A stretch of DNA of 64,000 nucleotides from Seleniivibrio woodruffii. GTDB lineage: Bacteria > Chrysiogenota > Deferribacteres > Deferribacterales > Geovibrionaceae. Positions 55,308-64,000 of the stretch are shown piece after piece. Location of the stretch: assembly GCF_029267515.1 (NCBI RefSeq), contig NZ_JAJUIS010000002.1:186001-250000 (forward strand), in the 5' to 3' direction. A program made the translations under genes and the position numbers. The notes beneath the pieces are model-generated. The model searched no databases. It was not told the DNA's origin and was given only the letters and a program-made list of their open reading frames with translations. Position 1 is the stretch's first letter; every line of letters starts with the position of its first letter.

Positions 55308-55916
55308 TTAAGAAGTCCTTTTTCCAACTTTTCTCTCCTCGCCCTGAACAATTCTGGCTATATTTCCTCTGTGGAGCCAGATTATCAGCAGGGCAATGAC
55401 AACGGTTATATACCGCAGGTGGTTCCATTCTGAACCGAACCACACCATAACAGCCAGAAACGCGGCGGCAGTCACGGAACCAAGGGACACCATCTGGAAC
55501 ACGGCAAGCATTATTCCGAATATGAAAGCCGCAATGAGAAGCTGAAAAGGAGCCAGAGCCAGGAATACGCCTACGCCCGTTGCAACCCCCTTCCCGCCTT
55601 TGAATTTCAGGAAACAGGTGAAGCTGTGCCCGATAATAAGCGCCACAGAACCGATGAGCACAAGCCAGCTTTCGCCGTAAAAATATTTCAGCGTCATAAC
55701 AGGGATAAAACCTTTCATCATATCGACAAAAAGTACACCTATGAATCCCCATTTGCCAAGCACGCGGGCGGCGTTGCTCGCCCCGACGTTACCGCTCCCC
55801 ACGGTTCTGATATCGATACCTTTGATCTTTTTCACCACCAGATAGGCGGTGGGGATTGATCCGATGACATAACAAACCGCTATGATAACGGCGGCAGTCA
55901 AAACAGTAAATATCAT
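55308..55916 (-). CDS. plsY: acyl-phosphate glycerol-3-phosphate acyltransferase
   Basis: 202 residues, polytopic. Motifs GSGNVGASNAAR, FLKFKGGKGVATG and IWLHRGNIARI-type end are those of PlsY, which starts phospholipid synthesis from acyl phosphate. ATGA overlap with the DUF362 gene. Its presence beside pgsA groups two membrane lipid steps. Confidence 0.95.
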   Translation of the reverse strand: MIFTVLTAAVIIAVCYVIGSIPTAYLVVKKIKGIDIRTVGSGNVGASNAARVLGKWGFIGVLFVDMMKGFIPVMTLKYFYGESWLVLIGSVALIIGHSFTCFLKFKGGKGVATGVGVFLALAPFQLLIAAFIFGIMLAVFQMVSLGSVTAAAFLAVMVWFGSEWNHLRYITVVIALLIIWLHRGNIARIVQGEERKVGKRTS

Positions 55917-56995
55917 GATCTCACCATCATTCTATGCAGCCACGACCTCTGCATACCGACAGCGTCGGACTCGCAGACCTCGTGGCAGCAGAAACATTCA
56001 ATACATTTGCTTTTATCTATAAAAGGATAGGAATTTACAACAGAAATGGCGTCAACAGGACAGCTATTTTTGCATAGCATACACTTTATGCAGGGATCTT
56101 TCAGTACCACAGGCTTTACATATACCTGTTCGGCAACGAATTTTTTCATAAATACAGGAACCTGCATCTTTCGGGACAGAGGAATTTTGAGTATCGGAAC
56201 GTCGGTTTCAGGCACATCTATCCACGAAGGGTCATAGCCCATACGCAGCGCCTCGGCGGTGGTCATACAGAAGCTGTCTTTAAGCCCAAGCATACGCGTT
56301 ACAGCGATATCCAGTCCCACTGCATCCGAGCAGGCAGCGGCTATGCCGAGCGGAACAGGTGTTCCGCGGGAAGGACCATCGCCCTCGTGAGCAATTATTC
56401 CGTCGATAATGTGCATCGTTTTGTCGCCCAGTAGTGTAAAATATTGATATATCTTAGCACCAAGCTCTGTGTCGGAAGGATATTTTCTATGAAAACCCAC
56501 CTTCGCCGTACCAGGAATAAGCCCGAAGAGGTTTTTGACAGAGAGTGTCAGCCCTGTGAGCGAATGTGTTTTTATTTTAGGCAGATTGATTATCACATCA
56601 ACCTCGTCCGCCAGCGACGAATACATAAATCCGTCTCTCTGCACGGGCGCATAGCTCTCCACACGGACTATTTTCACGCCGGCCTCTTCCGCCGCTCTGC
56701 CCACACCGGTAACATCCAGCACCTTTTCGTATTTACCGAAATTCGCGCCGGGGCTGTCGCCAAGCATAATACGCGCGTTAGTAAAGCGTTTCAGGGAGGC
56801 TATAACTGCGCGCACAAAATCGGGATGTGTAGTAACAGCCCGCTCAGGCGGTGTTGCGGAAAGAAGGTTGGGTTTCAGAAGAATTTCAGACGCAGAGGCA
56901 AGTCTGTCTTTTTCAGATTCAAAGTATAAGTCTATCAGCTCATTAAGGCTATCGTCCTGATAGCTCCCGCATTGTGCGGTGAATAGTTTACGCAT
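55913..56995 (-). CDS. DUF362 protein with two 4Fe-4S clusters
   Basis: 360 residues. The DUF362 part (ILLKPNLLSATPPERAVTTHPDFV, ARIMLGDSPGANFGKYEKV, INLPKIKTHSLTGLTLSVKNLFG) is followed by a ferredoxin domain CIKCMLCKNSCPVDAI and CIECFCCHEVCESDAV. Members are thought to be iron-sulfur proteins of unclear role in anaerobes. It overlaps pgsA by 8 bases. Confidence 0.9.
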   Translation of the reverse strand: MRKLFTAQCGSYQDDSLNELIDLYFESEKDRLASASEILLKPNLLSATPPERAVTTHPDFVRAVIASLKRFTNARIMLGDSPGANFGKYEKVLDVTGVGRAAEEAGVKIVRVESYAPVQRDGFMYSSLADEVDVIINLPKIKTHSLTGLTLSVKNLFGLIPGTAKVGFHRKYPSDTELGAKIYQYFTLLGDKTMHIIDGIIAHEGDGPSRGTPVPLGIAAACSDAVGLDIAVTRMLGLKDSFCMTTAEALRMGYDPSWIDVPETDVPILKIPLSRKMQVPVFMKKFVAEQVYVKPVVLKDPCIKCMLCKNSCPVDAISVVNSYPFIDKSKCIECFCCHEVCESDAVGMQRSWLHRMMVRS

Positions 56996-57542
56996 TTTCG
57001 GATCTTATAAAGTTCCTGTAGTACACCCATGCAGACTGGATTGAAAGTATGACCGAAAGATACACAAGCGCCTTTCCAATCATGAGGATATCCAGCCCAA
57101 GCAGGGGATTTTTGAATATTATACAGCCCACGCCGACCATCTGGAAAGCTGTCTTTATCTTTCCGCCCATCCCCGCGGCGATAACCTGCCCCTTACTGGC
57201 AGCAAAGCTGCGCAGCGCGTTTATGGCGAGGTCGCGGGTAATAAGGATGATAACAACAACAGCTTCAAGTCTGTGAAGTTCAACAAACACGACAAGAGTG
57301 GCAGTTACGAGCACTTTGTCAGCTATTGGATCAAGTATTTTTCCTAAATCAGTAATAAGATTATATTTTCTTGCAATATAACCATCTACGTAATCGGTTG
57401 CTGCGGCTATTGTGTAAAGAACGGTTGCAATAACATCGCTCCAGAAAGTATCCAGATACATCAGCCATATGAATACGGGCACCATGGCGATTCTGAATAT
57501 TGTAAGCCAGTTTGCAATGTTCATCTGAGCGGATAACGACAT
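56988..57542 (-). CDS. pgsA: phosphatidylglycerophosphate synthase
   Basis: 184 residues, CDP-alcohol phosphotransferase. The full D-x2-DG-x2-AR-x8-G-x3-D-x3-D motif is present from AATDYVDGYIARKYN to LGKILDPIADK. Makes PGP from CDP-diacylglycerol and glycerol 3-phosphate. AGAGGGA precedes the ATG. First gene of the operon, with its own promoter. Confidence 0.94.
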   Translation of the reverse strand: MSLSAQMNIANWLTIFRIAMVPVFIWLMYLDTFWSDVIATVLYTIAAATDYVDGYIARKYNLITDLGKILDPIADKVLVTATLVVFVELHRLEAVVVIILITRDLAINALRSFAASKGQVIAAGMGGKIKTAFQMVGVGCIIFKNPLLGLDILMIGKALVYLSVILSIQSAWVYYRNFIRSENA

Positions 57543-57608: not shown

Positions 57609-59351
57609 TTAATGGAAATATACGTCCGTTGACTTATTCCTTATAAACTCCATCAGCCTGTTTTCTGCATCCTGAGCGTATGCGCAGGAGGTCAGGTCTT
57701 TAACCAGTTCTTCGCAGTCGGAAACCTTCAGCGAGCGGATTATCATCCTTGCCCGCAATATCGACGACGGGCTCATGCTGAGCTGTCTGTACCCCATTCC
57801 TATCAGCAAAGGTATATATTTCGGTTCGCCCGCCATTTCGCCGCAGACGGTGCACTCTATTCCTGTGCTCTGCGCACTTGCAACTATCTTTTTAAGCAGT
57901 GTGCGAACCGCAGGGTGACATGGTTCGTAAAGGTATGCCACAAATTCGTTGTTGCGGTCTATGCCCAGCGCATATTGAATCAGGTCGTTTGTACCGACGC
58001 TGAAAAAATCCACCTCAAGCGCCGCCATCTCGCTTATCACAGCAAGCGACGGAAGTTCCATCATAACGCCGACTTTTATGTTCTCGTTAAAAGCTATCTT
58101 TTCTGCTCTGAGCTGCCTTTTCGCCTCATTAAGAGCAATTTTGCAGTCTCTCAGCTCCTCAAGTCCCGATATCATAGGGAACATGAGCTTAACGTTAGCA
58201 GTTGCTGAAACGCGGAGAACAGCGCGGAGCTGTTTCATGAAAAACTCTTCGTATTTAAGTGAATATCTGATTGCCCGCAATCCCATTGCCGGATTGTGTT
58301 CTTTCGGATGAGGCATATATTTTGAAAGTTTGTCGGAACCAAGGTCGAATGTTCTGATTGTCAGCGGTCGCCCGTAGTTAAGCTCCGCCGCCTCTTTAAG
58401 TATATTGAACTGAGTGTCCTCATCAACGTCGCCGTGCTGCATATAGATATATTCAGTTCTGTAAAGTCCCACACCGTCGGACTTATATTCGTTCGCCTTT
58501 TCAAGCTCGTCGTTCATCTCAACGTTGCTGAACAGTTTTATGACCACTCCATCCCTCGTAACCGAGGATTCACCGCGCATCTGTCCCAGTTCGCAGACAT
58601 AATCAGTATATCTGCTCCCCTTGAGCTTATAAGATTCCAGAGTTTCGTCGTCGGGGTTGATTATGACCTGCCCCTCGAAACCGTCGATAATGACAAAATC
58701 ACCCGTCTGCGCCACTTTCGCAATATCAACAAGTCCAACAACTGCGGGTATGCCAAGCGAGCGGGCGAGGATTGACGTATGGGAGGTTTTGCTTCCGAGG
58801 TCTGTGGCAAAGCCTCTGATATTGTTCTTTTTCATGTGAGAAGTATCAGCGGGGGTCAGATCGTGGGCGATGATTATTTCGGCATCCTCAACCTTCAGGA
58901 TAGAGTCCGGTCCGCCTCCTGTCATAAAGCGCAGAACCTTCTGCACAACGTTTACAACATCGGTCTTCCGCTCGCGCAGATACTCGTTCTCCGACATTCC
59001 AAAACGCTCCACAAGTCCGTTACAGGCGGTTTCAAGAGCATATTCTGCGTTTATCAGCTTATTTGCAATGAGCTTTTCGGCCTCTCCAGTGAGCATGGTA
59101 TCTTTAAGAAGCATAAGGTAAATATCAAAAATGAAAGAATTTTCTTCGGAAAGAGAATCTTTGCTGATGTTCTTTGACTGCTGTATGAACCATGCGGTCT
59201 TTTCAACAGCCCTGCGCAGCCGAGCCGTTTCCGCTTCTATCTCATTTTGGGCAATAGTATATTTTCTGACAGCAACTTTCGTTCTGTCCAGTATATAGCA
59301 GATTCCATAAGATATGCCGTCGCTTGAGGCAATACCTTTAATAACTTTCAA
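57609..59351 (-). CDS. ptsI: PTS enzyme I (phosphoenolpyruvate-protein phosphotransferase)
   Basis: 580 residues. The phosphoaccepting histidine is H191 in LGSKTSHTSILARSLGIPAVVG. The PEP domain shows YRTEYIYMQ, LTIRTFDLGSDKL, VGVMMELPS, FSVGTNDLIQYALGIDR and CGEMAG. Starts at TTG overlapping the HPr stop (TTGA) after GGAGAGGGA. Uses PEP to phosphorylate HPr. No terminator is seen behind it. Confidence 0.96.
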   Translation of the reverse strand: MKVIKGIASSDGISYGICYILDRTKVAVRKYTIAQNEIEAETARLRRAVEKTAWFIQQSKNISKDSLSEENSFIFDIYLMLLKDTMLTGEAEKLIANKLINAEYALETACNGLVERFGMSENEYLRERKTDVVNVVQKVLRFMTGGGPDSILKVEDAEIIIAHDLTPADTSHMKKNNIRGFATDLGSKTSHTSILARSLGIPAVVGLVDIAKVAQTGDFVIIDGFEGQVIINPDDETLESYKLKGSRYTDYVCELGQMRGESSVTRDGVVIKLFSNVEMNDELEKANEYKSDGVGLYRTEYIYMQHGDVDEDTQFNILKEAAELNYGRPLTIRTFDLGSDKLSKYMPHPKEHNPAMGLRAIRYSLKYEEFFMKQLRAVLRVSATANVKLMFPMISGLEELRDCKIALNEAKRQLRAEKIAFNENIKVGVMMELPSLAVISEMAALEVDFFSVGTNDLIQYALGIDRNNEFVAYLYEPCHPAVRTLLKKIVASAQSTGIECTVCGEMAGEPKYIPLLIGMGYRQLSMSPSSILRARMIIRSLKVSDCEELVKDLTSCAYAQDAENRLMEFIRNKSTDVYFH

Positions 59352-59620
59352 CGTCCCTCTCCGAACTTATTGCATATCAGTTCTTCAAGTGCGCAAAAGG
59401 CATCCGCTTCGTCGTCGCCTGTGCAGGAAACGGTTATCAGAGAACCTTTGAAAGCCGCAAGCATCATGAGTCCCATAATGCTTTTGCCGTTGACCTCCAT
59501 TCCGTCTCTTGCAACCTTTATCTCCGAAGAGAATTTTTCAGCGGTCTTAACGAATGCGCCCGCAGCCCTTGCGTGCATACCAAGTTCGTTAACAATCTCC
59601 AATTCCTTTTTAATACTCAC
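59348..59620 (-). CDS. ptsH: phosphocarrier protein HPr
   Basis: 90 residues. The EI-dependent histidine is H16 in NELGMHARAAGAFVKTAEKF. The serine site S47 in NGKSIMGLMMLAA fits HprK action, so both phospho-forms are possible. GTG start after AGGAG. It sits between the PTS IID gene and ptsI. Confidence 0.95.
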   Translation of the reverse strand: MSIKKELEIVNELGMHARAAGAFVKTAEKFSSEIKVARDGMEVNGKSIMGLMMLAAFKGSLITVSCTGDDEADAFCALEELICNKFGEGR

Positions 59621-59621
59621 C

Positions 59622-60320
59622 CTATACTCCTGTTATATAAAGGAAAAATCCCGTAGTAATTATTATCATGGTAAGTCCGAGAACAATGTCCAGCTTCTTA
59701 GCCAGAGCCATGCCCAGCATTATGTACACAGTAAGAGTGCCGAGCAGAACCGAATTAAAGTCCGCAGATGATTTCGCCATGTATGACAGTAAAATACCCA
59801 GCATCAGCGAAGAACCTATATCAAAATAGGTCGCCCATTTATTAAAACGGATCCTGTTAAAAAAAGTTATTACGTCCCTGCCCAGACTATAGCCTATTCT
59901 GAATCCTGTGAAGCGGAAGGAAAGATGGAACAGGTTATACAGCACCAGATAGGATATTATCCCTGCAAAAGGGTTATAAAAACCCGCTATTGCAGCCGTT
60001 GCGAAACACAGCGGACGCAGAGAATGCCAGAAAAAACTGTCTCCCAATGCGCCGAAAGCGGAGGAATATATCTTTTTATGAAAATCCTCCTCGCCGTTCT
60101 GCTCAAACTCGCGTACCCACATACCCACTATGAAATTCACCAGATAAGGGTGGGTATGGAAGTACGAAGTCTGTTCGTACACTTTCTTAACCTCAAGCTC
60201 CATGCCTTTGAGCCGTGCCGCTTTTCGTATAAGATACGCAAATCCTGTTCCCTGCATATTCTCATGGTTCAGATTTGCCTGATAAAAAAAGCTGAAAAAA
60301 CCGATTATCAGACTTTTCAT
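59622..60320 (-). CDS. PTS mannose-family IID component
   Basis: 232 residues, shorter than the roughly 270-280 of ManZ. ENMQGTGFAYLIRKAARL, FNTHPYLVNF-like SYFHTHPYLVNFIVGMWVREFE and ALGDSFFWHSLRPL are the IID signatures. Two to three membrane helices are at the C-terminus. Start ATG overlaps the IIC stop (ATGA); four residues further up is not needed. With IIC it forms the transport channel; substrate unknown. Confidence 0.9.
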   Translation of the reverse strand: MKSLIIGFFSFFYQANLNHENMQGTGFAYLIRKAARLKGMELEVKKVYEQTSYFHTHPYLVNFIVGMWVREFEQNGEEDFHKKIYSSAFGALGDSFFWHSLRPLCFATAAIAGFYNPFAGIISYLVLYNLFHLSFRFTGFRIGYSLGRDVITFFNRIRFNKWATYFDIGSSLMLGILLSYMAKSSADFNSVLLGTLTVYIMLGMALAKKLDIVLGLTMIIITTGFFLYITGV

Positions 60321-60967
60321 AATACAACCCATCCGATAACCAGTCCGAGAGCAAAAAACGCATATTTAAGATATGTTTTCGCAGACAGAAACCGCAGCAC
60401 ATAACCGGAGAGAAACGCAAACAGCATCAGAGCATAAACGAAGAAATTCATATCCGTGTTTCTGCTGCCGTGGAGAAATATATAGATATGATAGATAATG
60501 AAAGTTCCGAGCGTATAAAATATAACCCCGCGCATGTAGGAAAAACAGAAACCAGTCACCAGCAGCCGCAACGGATAAATCCGCCCGCTCCTCTGCTGCC
60601 GGACATAAAGCGCTTTGTTAAACGCCCTTGTTATATAAAGGGAAAGTGTCACAGGATACATCATAAGCAGGATGAGCAGAAAAAGAAGAACATAGTTCGG
60701 TTCATGCGCCTGAGGCATAAACGAAAGGAGGGAACATCCGGCAAATGCGCCGAAGCTGTCCTCTTTCGGCACACGTGTACCAAAAGGCACGTCGACGAGA
60801 CCCACAGCCTCGAAAATTATGCCAACATAGAAACACTCCATGCTGTTCCCCAGCAGAAGCCCCATTATCATGGAAATGACTATGGGACGCGAAAGCATCA
60901 CATTGAACGCGGCGAACCTGTCAACGGAGATGATTCCTGCATAAAGAACGGCAAAGACTATGTTCAC
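60317..60967 (-). CDS. PTS mannose-family IIC component
   Basis: 216 residues, all membrane helices, shorter than ManY (about 260). SVDRFAAFNVMLSRPIVISMIMGLLLG and GVIFEAVGL-like VGIIFEAVGLVDVPFGTRVPKEDSFG match the IIC signature. GTG start overlapping the IIB stop, SD GGAGGG. The C-terminal half is the most divergent. Confidence 0.88.
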   Translation of the reverse strand: MNIVFAVLYAGIISVDRFAAFNVMLSRPIVISMIMGLLLGNSMECFYVGIIFEAVGLVDVPFGTRVPKEDSFGAFAGCSLLSFMPQAHEPNYVLLFLLILLMMYPVTLSLYITRAFNKALYVRQQRSGRIYPLRLLVTGFCFSYMRGVIFYTLGTFIIYHIYIFLHGSRNTDMNFFVYALMLFAFLSGYVLRFLSAKTYLKYAFFALGLVIGWVVL

Positions 60968-61455
60968 AGATTGCCCTCCAGTATGTAGTTAAAATTCTTT
61001 ATCTCCACACTGGGTTCCCATGAAACCTTATGAATAAACACCTCGAAATCCTGCCGTATCTCGCATATTTTCCTTATCTCATCAGGGTTAAGAAAAACAG
61101 TGTTGGAAACCTCTATTTTGTGTTCGCGGGATGCCACGCACCCGATATTCACATAAACATCGTCATTTATCATTGATTTGATGGCGTAAAGGTCGTCAAC
61201 ACTTTCTAGCAGGACGAGGACATAGTCCTTCTTATACCGATCAGAACGGAACGAGCTGATGAAATCGGCAACAGTAAGAATCGAAAGTTCAGTGCCTGGC
61301 GGCAACGTGCTTGCATATATCATTTTTTGCAAAGGGTTGTCTGCGACCTTATCATTGGCAATGACAACGTGGTTGATCTTAAAATGTTTAAGCCATCCCT
61401 CAATCACCTGCCCGTGTATAAGCCGGTCGTCAACCCGGAAAATTATCTTTTTCAT
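60964..61455 (-). CDS. PTS mannose-family IIB component
   Basis: 163 residues. The phosphorylated histidine is H14 in FRVDDRLIHGQVIEGWLKHF, followed by VIANDKVADNPLQKMIYASTLPPG. Accepts phosphate from IIA and passes it to the sugar. ATGA overlap with IIA. Confidence 0.93.
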   Translation of the reverse strand: MKKIIFRVDDRLIHGQVIEGWLKHFKINHVVIANDKVADNPLQKMIYASTLPPGTELSILTVADFISSFRSDRYKKDYVLVLLESVDDLYAIKSMINDDVYVNIGCVASREHKIEVSNTVFLNPDEIRKICEIRQDFEVFIHKVSWEPSVEIKNFNYILEGNL

Positions 61456-61856
61456 GCCTTCCCTTTAAGAAGCTGTCCGGCAACGATAATACTGTTTTTG
61501 CCGGATTCCGCACAGTCCTCACAGATAGCCGTGAGGGATTTGTTCTCCTTTCTGGCGCTAATCGCTTTGATAAGCATTGGCAGATTCACTCCTGAAACAA
61601 CCTCAACGTTCTTATCGCCGAGATAAGCCATTGATATGTTTGAAGGACTGCCTCCGAACATATCTGTAAAAACTATGGCTCCGGTTGAATCGTATCTTTC
61701 TATAGCTTTTTCAATTTCGTCCGCAATACCTGCGAGTGAAGACCCGTCCAGCATTGATATAGTCTCGATACATTCCTGTTTCCCGACTATCATTTCCGCC
61801 GTTTTAACAAGTTCCTCGCAAAAAAGTCCGTGAGTAACCAAGATTATTCCGATCAT
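61452..61856 (-). CDS. PTS mannose-family IIA component
   Basis: 134 residues with the phosphorylated histidine H9 in IILVTHGLFCEELVKTAEMI and DMFGGSPSNISMAYLG. A separate IIA, not fused to IIB as in E. coli ManX. Follows rapZ by four bases, SD AGGTGA. Confidence 0.94.
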   Translation of the reverse strand: MIGIILVTHGLFCEELVKTAEMIVGKQECIETISMLDGSSLAGIADEIEKAIERYDSTGAIVFTDMFGGSPSNISMAYLGDKNVEVVSGVNLPMLIKAISARKENKSLTAICEDCAESGKNSIIVAGQLLKGKA

Positions 61857-61860
61857 CTGA

Positions 61861-62715
61861 TCACCTGTTTACATCCCTATGTCTGATATTTACCTTGATT
61901 TTTGCTTTCTTATCAAGGTATCCGGCAATAAATTCCGCTATGGCGACAGACCTGTGCCGCCCGCCTGTGCAGCCTATGGATACGGTGAGGAATTTTTTCC
62001 CCTCCCGTATGTAGTTCGGGATAAGAAATCCCAGAAGCCCCTTGAGTTTGAACAGAAACTGCTTCGCATTGTGGTCGGCGAGAACGTAGTCGCTGACAAT
62101 CTGTTCAAGTCCGGTTTTTTCTCTAAGCTCGTCAACAAAATACGGGTTTTTCATAAAGCGCACGTCAAAAACGAGATCTGAATCCTGTGGCAAACCGTAT
62201 TTAAACCCGAAAGACTGAACAGTGACAATAAGCCCCGACTGCATTTCAGTTGAAAAAAAGTCTTCAACACGTCTTTTAAGCTCATGCACGTTCAGCGTTG
62301 AGGTGTCTATGACAAGGTCTGCGTAATCCCTTATCGGGCAAAGTTTTTCTCTTTCAGAGCTGATAGCTTCCGTAAGGTTGTCGCCCATGGGGTGTTTTCT
62401 TCTCGTCTCTTTAAAGCGCCTTATCAGAACGTCGTCGGACGCGTGGAGATAAACAACTTTTGCAGCGTATTTTTCCTGCAGAATCTTTATCTTCTCCACA
62501 GCAGCGGAGATGTCCTTGCTTCTGCTGTCGATAACCAGGGCAACTTTATTCAGCTCATTCTCATACATGACCATGAGTTCAACAAATTTGTCCAGCAGCC
62601 GGAGCGGAAGGTTGTCTATAGTATAAAACCCCAGATCCTCAAGGGTTGCCGCGGCAACGGATTTTCCACCGCCGGAAAGCCCTGTGAGAACCACAAGGGA
62701 TTTTTCATTCTCCAT
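61861..62715 (-). CDS. rapZ: RNase adapter RapZ
   Basis: 284 residues. Walker A GLSGGGKS is at 12-19. The C-terminal SIGCTGGRHRSVAIAEFIA is the RapZ signature. In E. coli it feeds GlmZ sRNA to RNase E and senses glucosamine 6-phosphate; in Gram-positives (YvcJ) it sits near hprK-type genes. TAATG overlap with hprK supports a shared PTS-linked role. Confidence 0.95.
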   Translation of the reverse strand: MENEKSLVVLTGLSGGGKSVAAATLEDLGFYTIDNLPLRLLDKFVELMVMYENELNKVALVIDSRSKDISAAVEKIKILQEKYAAKVVYLHASDDVLIRRFKETRRKHPMGDNLTEAISSEREKLCPIRDYADLVIDTSTLNVHELKRRVEDFFSTEMQSGLIVTVQSFGFKYGLPQDSDLVFDVRFMKNPYFVDELREKTGLEQIVSDYVLADHNAKQFLFKLKGLLGFLIPNYIREGKKFLTVSIGCTGGRHRSVAIAEFIAGYLDKKAKIKVNIRHRDVNR

Positions 62716-63707
62716 TATTCAACTCCCCTTCTTCCCATTCTCTTTTCAAGTTCGTCAGTGAGTATCTTCTGAGATTCGCCTTCGTTTATAGTGCTCATGA
62801 GTCTTTCGGAAAACTCCTGTGCTGAGTTGTAGCCCATTATTTTCAGGAGATGGTTTCTGGCGGCTATCTCCACGATAACAGCCATGTTTCGTCCCGCACT
62901 GATGGGCAGGATTATTTTGGGCACCCGCTGGCGCAGTATCTCTTCATATACGTTGTCAAGCCCCAGCCTGTCGTATGAAACGTTGGGGTTCCAGTCGGTA
63001 AATTCTATTACAAGTTCCAGCTTCTTGCGTAGCCTTATGGCGGCAACACCGAACATATCTTTTATGTTTATGATGCCAAGCCCCCGAACCTCCATATGAT
63101 ATCGGAGCATATCGGAGCTTGAACCTTCCAGATAGTCCTGAATACGCTTGAAGCGTACAGCGTCGTCGGCAACCAGCCTGTGCCCGCGTTTAATAAGCTC
63201 AACAGCGCACTCGCTTTTTCCTATTCCGCTTCTGCCTGTGATAAGCGTTCCTATGCCGAAAACGTCAAGAAAAACGCCATGACAGACACTTTCAGGCGCC
63301 AGTCTGTCCTCAAGAAAAACTGAGAGATCGATTATAGTTTCTGAACTGACCCTGTCTGTCTTGAAAAGAGGGATTGAAAACGCCATGACGGTTTCGGTAA
63401 CTTCGTCAGGCAGTTTGAGATCTTTCGTAACGATGAAGCAGCAGACGTCTTTTTTGCAGATACCCGCCACGGACTGCCTTCTCATCTCCGGTTCCAGAGT
63501 CCAGAGGTAGGACACTTCCGTGTTTCCGAGAATCTGAACACGCCCGCTGTGGATATGATCGCAGTAGCCCGCCAGGGCAAGCCCCGGCTTCTGTATGCGG
63601 AAATGAGTTATCTGCTTTTCATCAAGTATGTTCTCGCCGAATATAAGCTGAAGCCCCAGATGCGCCGCATCCGGAGACATAAGCTCGGCAACGGGTACAC
63701 TTTTCAT
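62715..63707 (-). CDS. hprK: HPr kinase/phosphorylase
   Basis: 330 residues. The N-terminal domain is followed by the kinase domain with catalytic H143 (CHGVFLDVFG), Walker A GRSGIGKS (158-165) and the HprK signature EVRGLGIINIKDMFGVAAI. It phosphorylates and dephosphorylates the regulatory serine of HPr, which is present here. ATGA overlap with ptsN. Confidence 0.95.
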   Translation of the reverse strand: MKSVPVAELMSPDAAHLGLQLIFGENILDEKQITHFRIQKPGLALAGYCDHIHSGRVQILGNTEVSYLWTLEPEMRRQSVAGICKKDVCCFIVTKDLKLPDEVTETVMAFSIPLFKTDRVSSETIIDLSVFLEDRLAPESVCHGVFLDVFGIGTLITGRSGIGKSECAVELIKRGHRLVADDAVRFKRIQDYLEGSSSDMLRYHMEVRGLGIINIKDMFGVAAIRLRKKLELVIEFTDWNPNVSYDRLGLDNVYEEILRQRVPKIILPISAGRNMAVIVEIAARNHLLKIMGYNSAQEFSERLMSTINEGESQKILTDELEKRMGRRGVE

Positions 63708-64000
63708 CCCAGCCTAGACTCCTCCTCTACAAGTATAGCATATATCCGCTCAGGGGTATTGCTTTCTGCGGTGACGCGGTCTTTAAAATCAGTCATTTTC
63801 ACAAGTTTACTTATTCTGGCGAGGGTTTTAAGGTGCATATTCATCTGTTTTTCAGGAGAAATAAGCATGAAAAACAGCTTAACTGGTTTTCCGTCGGCGG
63901 AATCAAAGTCTATTCCGTCTTTCTTAACACCTATAAGAACGGAAATATCTTCTATATCAGTAATCTTTGCGTGCGGTATCGCAACCTGTTCGCCAACGCC
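63704..64000 (-). CDS. ptsN: PTS IIA (PtsN/nitrogen type), 5' end outside window
   Basis: Only the last 98 codons are present; the gene runs off the right edge. GVGEQVAIPHAKITDIED contains the phosphorylated histidine, followed by LIGVKKDGIDFDSADGKPVKL and VKLFFMLISPEKQMNMHLK, as in EIIA-Ntr. It shares ATGA with hprK and heads the visible part of the PTS operon. Confidence 0.9.
   Translation of the reverse strand, partial: GVGEQVAIPHAKITDIEDISVLIGVKKDGIDFDSADGKPVKLFFMLISPEKQMNMHLKTLARISKLVKMTDFKDRVTAESNTPERIYAILVEEESRLG

Follow-up and report, generated by a model that had tools for sequence, protein, structure and literature searches.

What does a complete mannose-class phosphotransferase system (PTS) do in the rpoN cluster of Seleniivibrio woodruffii? 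The genes in question lie in the stretch of DNA analysed here (the window), 64,000 nucleotides (nt) that correspond to positions 186,001 to 250,000 of contig C29 (NZ_JAJUIS010000002.1) in a 2.83-Mb genome of 35 contigs. Nine genes run on the minus strand from position 64000 to 57609 in the order ptsN-hprK-rapZ-IIA-IIB-IIC-IID-ptsH-ptsI; this operon had been described in a sequence-only reading, and its genes, their order and their coordinates were confirmed. On balance, we lean towards a permease of low capacity that also acts as a sensor, within a complete, vertically kept mannose-class PTS of the rpoN-cluster type. The genes of the operon and the next gene downstream are as follows (aa, amino acids; EI, enzyme I).

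63704 to 64000, minus strand: ptsN (EIIA-Ntr), 3' part; PF00359, 110.5 bits on the full protein; H67 in AIPHAK
62715 to 63707, minus strand: hprK, HPr(Ser) kinase/phosphorylase, 330 aa; TIGR00679, 363.7 bits (cut-off, 240)
61861 to 62715, minus strand: rapZ/yvcJ-type P-loop protein, 284 aa; NF003828, 342.7 bits (cut-off, 244)
61452 to 61856, minus strand: IIA, mannose class, 134 aa, with H9 (VTHG); PF03610, 94.1 bits
60964 to 61455, minus strand: IIB, mannose/sorbose class, 163 aa, with H14 (RLIHGQ); PF03830, 130.9 bits
60317 to 60967, minus strand: IIC, short form, 216 aa; PF03609, 28.9 bits, 2.6 bits over the cut-off
59622 to 60332, minus strand: IID, short form, 236 aa (232 aa from ATG 60320); PF03613, 76.1 bits
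59348 to 59620, minus strand: ptsH (HPr), 90 aa, with H16 (GMHAR) and S47 (NGKSIMG); PF00381, 99 bits
57609 to 59351, minus strand: ptsI (EI without GAF domain), 580 aa, with H191 (SKTSHTS); TIGR01417, 533.5 bits (cut-off, 341.7)
56988 to 57542, minus strand: pgsA-like CDP-alcohol phosphatidyltransferase; PF01066, 147 bits; next gene downstream after a 66-nt gap

All nine operon genes scored far above their Pfam cut-offs except IIC, which was marginal (28.9 versus 26.3 bits), and the IIA-man, IIB-sorb, IIC EII-Sor and IID EIID-AGA domains all exceeded the curated thresholds. The full ptsN encodes 155 aa and reaches position 64171, beyond the end of the window. HprK has the Walker A motif GRSGIGKS and the signature EVRGLGIINI, with both its N- and C-terminal Pfam domains matched, and EI consists of the three PEP-utiliser domains only and has the CGEM motif. 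The mannose-class IIA is a single copy in the genome, and no second copy of HPr was found in it. As had been claimed, the translations contain all of the phosphorylatable histidines (EI H191, HPr H16, IIA H9, IIB H14 and PtsN H67) and the HPr serine, S47. The genes are indeed joined as tightly as proposed, mostly by 4-nt overlaps or within a few bases of abutting: ptsN/hprK -4, hprK/rapZ -1, rapZ/IIA +4, IIA/IIB -4, IIB/IIC -4, IIC/IID -16, IID/ptsH +1 and ptsH/ptsI -4 nt. The probable start of IID is the ATG at 60320, which would give the usual 4-nt overlap with IIC and match its relatives. Scans for sigma-70-like promoters and terminators gave many matches but no clear break inside the operon, and Rfam had no match in the PTS operon and the upstream lpt/rpoN genes (L002). 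With ptsI/pgsA at +66 nt, the pgsA-like gene is probably outside the PTS unit; a DUF362 protein with a C-terminal 4Fe-4S domain is encoded at 55913 to 56995, between pgsA and plsY.

IIC and IID had been called shorter than the mannose permease proteins, and they are (216 versus 266 aa in ManY; 236 or 232 versus 283 aa in ManZ). Do they still form a permease? A phmmer search with IIC alone matched no Man-PTS structure, and a profile search reached Man-PTS structures only at E values of 0.003 to 0.1. Since the sequence searches were this weak for IIC, a fold model was needed. The AlphaFold model of IIC (predicted local distance difference test [pLDDT], 79) matched Man-PTS IIC chains with Z scores of 15.7 to 16.6, the next unrelated row being at 5.4, and the model of IID (pLDDT, 84) matched Man-PTS IID chains at 13.7 to 16.6, the next unrelated row being at 6.0. 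According to these models, IIC and IID have Man-PTS folds despite being short. The predicted fold of the membrane pair, the IIA and IIB families and the phospho-histidine sites are thus like those of Escherichia coli ManXYZ and the Man-PTS structures (6k1h, 7dyr, 7xno and 8hfs); unlike in ManXYZ, IIA and IIB are separate proteins, and IIC and IID are each about 50 residues shorter.

Residues were compared with those of ten sugar-class permeases from E. coli and plasmids. The IID core keeps the common N, E, G, GD, Y and G positions, with some others changed, and IIC keeps the common P, most G positions and the E/Q; the IIC subfamily has the motif DRxxxxNxMxSRP. In a concatenated tree, the operon type stood apart from the ten sugar permeases with a support of only 0.48. 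D25 is tied to the sugar pocket in Lactococcus (PMC10783117), and IIC has no acidic residue at the column aligned with D25 of the mannose group, a residue that is not universal in the family. ManY D25 was dropped as a test of sugar specificity because the position varies among sugar permeases. Could IIC and IID be degenerating proteins that are kept only through their position in the operon? The low Pfam score of IIC and the shortening of both proteins would fit such a relic, but motifs are invariant across distant genera (25 columns in 14 IIC sequences and 23 in 17 IID sequences), the frames are open and a single copy is kept throughout the phylum. We therefore consider decay most improbable.

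The PTS operon is the 3' half of an rpoN/lipopolysaccharide (LPS) cluster. Upstream, beyond the window, follow hpf, rpoN, lptB, lptA, lptC, kdsC, kdsD, pyrG and kdsB (names read from the sequences). As in the known rpoN-cluster PTS, lptB-rpoN-hpf-ptsN-hprK are contiguous and the cluster holds IIA-Man, HPr and an EI without GAF domain. The context consists of rpoN, LPS export, lipid and riboflavin genes, and no sugar-specific regulator or catabolic gene was present in the cluster. Upstream of the LPS genes, a CdaA/CdaR-like pair (diadenylate cyclase region; named from sequence only) lies beside glmM (L002:16589-18264). PTS clusters that surround rpoN and comprise ptsN, ptsK, IIA-Man, HPr and EI-R were reported by Comas et al. 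(2008; PMC2405797). They pointed out that the rpoN/PTS cluster of Desulfovibrio vulgaris comes with a mannose-class transporter and inferred an ancestral cluster, in which IIB, IIC and IID were suggested to be present before they were lost in most Proteobacteria. The operon matches this arrangement, in line with the earlier suggestion of a known arrangement in extended form.

The cluster of D. vulgaris (PMC2405797; Santana and Crasnier-Mednansky 2006, cited there) likewise has PTS phosphotransfer genes and a mannose-class transporter by rpoN; an R-type EI is putatively common to both, and regulation as well as transport were proposed there, too. Judged by its published description, it differs from the locus in the window, where the genes form one gapless run that includes hprK, rapZ and ptsN and belong to a phylum-wide pattern. 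No functional studies of the D. vulgaris mannose-class system were found in the literature searched. In Xanthomonas campestris, XC_1304-1310 (PMC6916182) encode EI, HPr, IIA-Man, a P-loop protein, HprK and IIA-Ntr, and the order in the window is alike apart from the additional IIB, IIC and IID; IIB/IIC are unreported for Xanthomonas, whose cluster is hence permease-less. Xanthomonas HprK phosphorylates HPr in vitro (PMC6916182). In E. coli, kdsD-kdsC-lptCAB-rpoN-hpf-ptsN-rapZ-npr (L080) matches the window cluster in the upstream order up to ptsN and in rapZ, but lacks hprK, IIABCD and EI and has NPr in place of HPr, with EANSVIA instead of the HprK motif NGKSIMG. The arrangement is therefore already known, though rarely seen intact; what is new is its near-universality in one phylum and its recurrence in others.

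Of 51 Deferribacterota genomes surveyed, 45 have IID, 42 have IIC (by Pfam), 49 have HPr, 48 have EI and 33 have HprK. The lack of IIC by Pfam in two of them (G008 and G050) was a failure of sensitivity, since IIC and IID were both found in place. Classical PTS_EIIC permeases were present in only 5/51 genomes; within these two classes, the mannose-class operon is therefore nearly always the only PTS permease. In all 30 loci from a search with IIC, those genes that are covered by the contig and recognised by the sequence searches stand in the order IIA-IIB-IIC-IID, and nearly all of the loci have rapZ in front and HPr behind. Among relatives in the genome collection, IID was 94% identical in Seleniivibrio sp. 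and 98% in metagenome-assembled genome (MAG) UBA6793, which fits a place of this genome next to Seleniivibrio. Outside the phylum, the same order was found in Pelobacter, Myxococcales, Eisenbacteria, Elusimicrobia and unclassified MAGs, with lptB/rpoN/hpf/ptsN/hprK/rapZ, or most of them, upstream; in the Pelobacter loci, no hprK was seen between ptsN and rapZ. None of the loci compared had lost the phospho-histidine (present in HPr, 30/30; IIA, 31/31; IIB, 31/31). We infer that the operon has been inherited vertically.

Is the system purely regulatory, with IIC and IID as a transport-dead membrane sink or anchor? The outputs would then be PtsN, HPr-Ser-P and unphosphorylated IIA/IIB, and their targets would be sigma-54 genes, K+ balance and envelope precursors. 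This is in keeping with the adjacent rpoN, hpf and ptsN, with the related cluster of Xanthomonas, which is permease-less and regulatory (PMC6916182), and with Brucella, which has PTS proteins but no permease (PMC2937029). If regulation were the only function, however, IIB, IIC and IID should decay, as is thought for most Proteobacteria; instead, nearly all species have them, even where hprK and ptsN are gone, and the fold and most of the IID core residues are retained as well. HprK had been put forward as an output. In family f7 (Mucispirillum and two related genera), hprK and the PtsN-type EIIA are both absent from all 15 genomes, and hpf is directly followed by rapZ in the Mucispirillum loci. 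Yet 14 of the 15 genomes have IID, and the loci read contain the run IIABCD-HPr-EI; the genome without IID (G035) also has no match for HPr and EI. Thus, HprK is not the reason for permease retention: permease and phosphorelay stay together where the kinase and PtsN have been lost. PtsN is also absent from family f6, which keeps hprK. RapZ had been named as an output and as an RNase adapter, but it lacks the RNA-binding tail found at the C terminus of the E. coli adapter; K270, K281, R282 and K283 (residues from PMC7073468) correspond to I, R, a gap and a gap. An output as RNase adapter is therefore not supported, and the protein is not classed as one here. Its glucosamine 6-phosphate pocket keeps T248, G249, H252 and R253, with Y for H190 (residues from PMC5737377).

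The HprK target serine is found in 16/16 HPrs compared from hprK-bearing lineages and in 4/4 from the other two hprK-less genera; in Mucispirillum, it is replaced by histidine (N.KHLIDVI) in 10/10 genomes (L007-L010, L014-L018 and L021). From this pattern, it is very likely that HprK acts on this HPr, and a decay of the site after the loss of hprK would fit. A CcpA partner for P-Ser-HPr was rejected: the sole full-length LacI-type regulator in this genome scored 102 bits versus a ccpA cut-off of 442, and a LacI search gave no match in most hprK-bearing genomes.

The operon had also been called self-contained, with all phosphotransfer proteins in it. It does hold a complete chain, but a second EI and an exchanger-EIIA fusion are encoded elsewhere in the genome. 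The second EI, of 706 aa, is of the GAF-EI (PtsP/EI-Ntr) type and lies at C29:167897-170017 (L081:2898-5018), about 16 kb before the start of the window. ptsP was described as exclusive to Proteobacteria (PMC2405797); here, GAF-EI coexists with EI in Deferribacterota, i.e., outside Proteobacteria, in a genome with a single HPr. Of the PTS-Ntr parts, GAF-EI and PtsN are thus present, and the only HPr carries the HprK serine. The fusion is a Na+/H+ exchanger of 566 aa whose C-terminal EIIA domain retains the phospho-histidine (VPHAR; C13:71892-73592, L073:1893-3593), and many other members of the phylum also have EIIA-domain frames of 560 to 610 aa. By analogy with E. coli, in which unphosphorylated PtsN inhibits the K+/H+ antiporter YcgO (PMC11808508), the fusion would be a plausible output, and a purely regulatory PTS could make use of it as well.

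Is the operon, on the other hand, an ordinary nutritional mannose/glucose PTS, with sugar use overlooked in culture tests? A complete enzyme II and pfkA (6-phosphofructokinase), present in 51/51 genomes including this one, would be consistent with it. For Termitispirillum cryptocerci, a termite symbiont, glycolysis has been predicted along with the import of sugars through a PTS or other transporters (PMC12887300). However, Deferrivibrio used none of a broad set of sugars tested, sugars are generally unused in the phylum (PMC11896075) and, as described above, the cluster has no gene specific to a sugar. A nutritional role is therefore unlikely. The window was earlier said to contain no sugar catabolism genes, from which a possible regulatory role was derived. 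This role is plausible since the phylum is generally non-sugar-using (PMC11896075); elsewhere in the genome, however, there are pfkA and a glycogen cluster (C34; L092:1951-13642), which encodes GlgA, a nucleotidyltransferase-phosphoglucomutase fusion, a GalT-like protein and three GH57 enzymes, one of them a branching enzyme. A GH57 4-alpha-glucanotransferase-like gene separates IIB from IIC in Elusimicrobia and in two MAGs, one from Eisenbacteria and one unclassified, at the following positions:

L065:5111-7282, L068:5115-, L069:5161-, L066:1056-, L063:4967-, L070:2-: GH57 insert loci

The inserted GH57 is 33% identical to its counterpart in the glycogen cluster of this genome; the insertion suggests a tie of the PTS unit to hexose/alpha-glucan metabolism. 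In the unclassified MAG, a CofD/YvcK (GlmR)-like gene (L063:2700-4058) stands between hprK and IIA, the place of rapZ in other loci. Both insertions suggest hexose or amino-sugar balance rather than a specific substrate.

Taken together, we favour the permease that doubles as a sensor over a purely regulatory PTS, which is possible but clearly less probable. The preference rests on the full chain with all its sites, the phylum-wide retention, the predicted Man-PTS folds, the permeases kept without hprK and ptsN, and the presence of sinks for sugar phosphate (pfkA and the glycogen cluster). Phosphoryl groups would flow from phosphoenolpyruvate (PEP) via EI and the histidine of HPr to IIA-IIB and on to the membrane pair IIC-IID, and PtsN would also accept them from HPr-P. 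Driven by ATP and metabolites, HprK would phosphorylate HPr on Ser47 and thereby lessen its phosphorylation on histidine. IICD would most likely take up and phosphorylate a hexose or amino sugar at low capacity, and the product would feed envelope or glycogen precursors, not growth. The phosphorylation state of HPr, PtsN and the antiporter-fused PtsN-like domain would then report PEP and sugar status.

Several observations weigh against this preference. Deferribacterota generally do not use sugars, with the exception of D. autotrophicus (PMC11896075), which would also suit a purely regulatory PTS. A search for nagB found none, so that amino-sugar catabolism is unlikely, and its NagB route was rejected. 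IIC is very divergent (10 to 16% identical to ManY-class structures) and misses its last ~50 residues, and IID lacks a loop of ~35 residues. One genome of family f6 (G030) keeps hprK-rapZ-IIA, HPr and EI but has no match for IIC/IID; its HPr has both phosphorylation sites and is encoded beside an FBPase-like gene (L077:1976-3374), and this genome, which keeps the soluble parts as a purely regulatory PTS would, is a possible regulation-only derivative. Finally, the loss of the HPr serine is one event in one genus, and the other HPrs of the clade keep it without hprK, so that support for a link to HprK is moderate and the loss itself is suggestive.

A wider idea, which we offer tentatively and consider doubtful, is that the rpoN-cluster IICD of several phyla is a distinct permease subfamily for salvage of envelope- or glycogen-derived sugar rather than for nutrition. 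The PTS would then meter envelope carbon in respiring bacteria that do not use sugars, and Deferribacterota would show its stepwise dismantling (ptsN and hprK, then the HPr serine) with the permease staying. The retention of the operon throughout the phylum supports the 2008 idea that IIBCD belonged to the ancestral cluster and extends it beyond Proteobacteria. In most Proteobacteria, soluble remnants are all that is left of this cluster, and for that reason it has been viewed as regulatory. The loss of hprK with that of the HPr serine after it, and the retention of the permease once hprK and ptsN were gone, provide ready natural comparisons, and a phylum that has the complete form, mostly without sugar use, is well suited to asking what the system was originally for.

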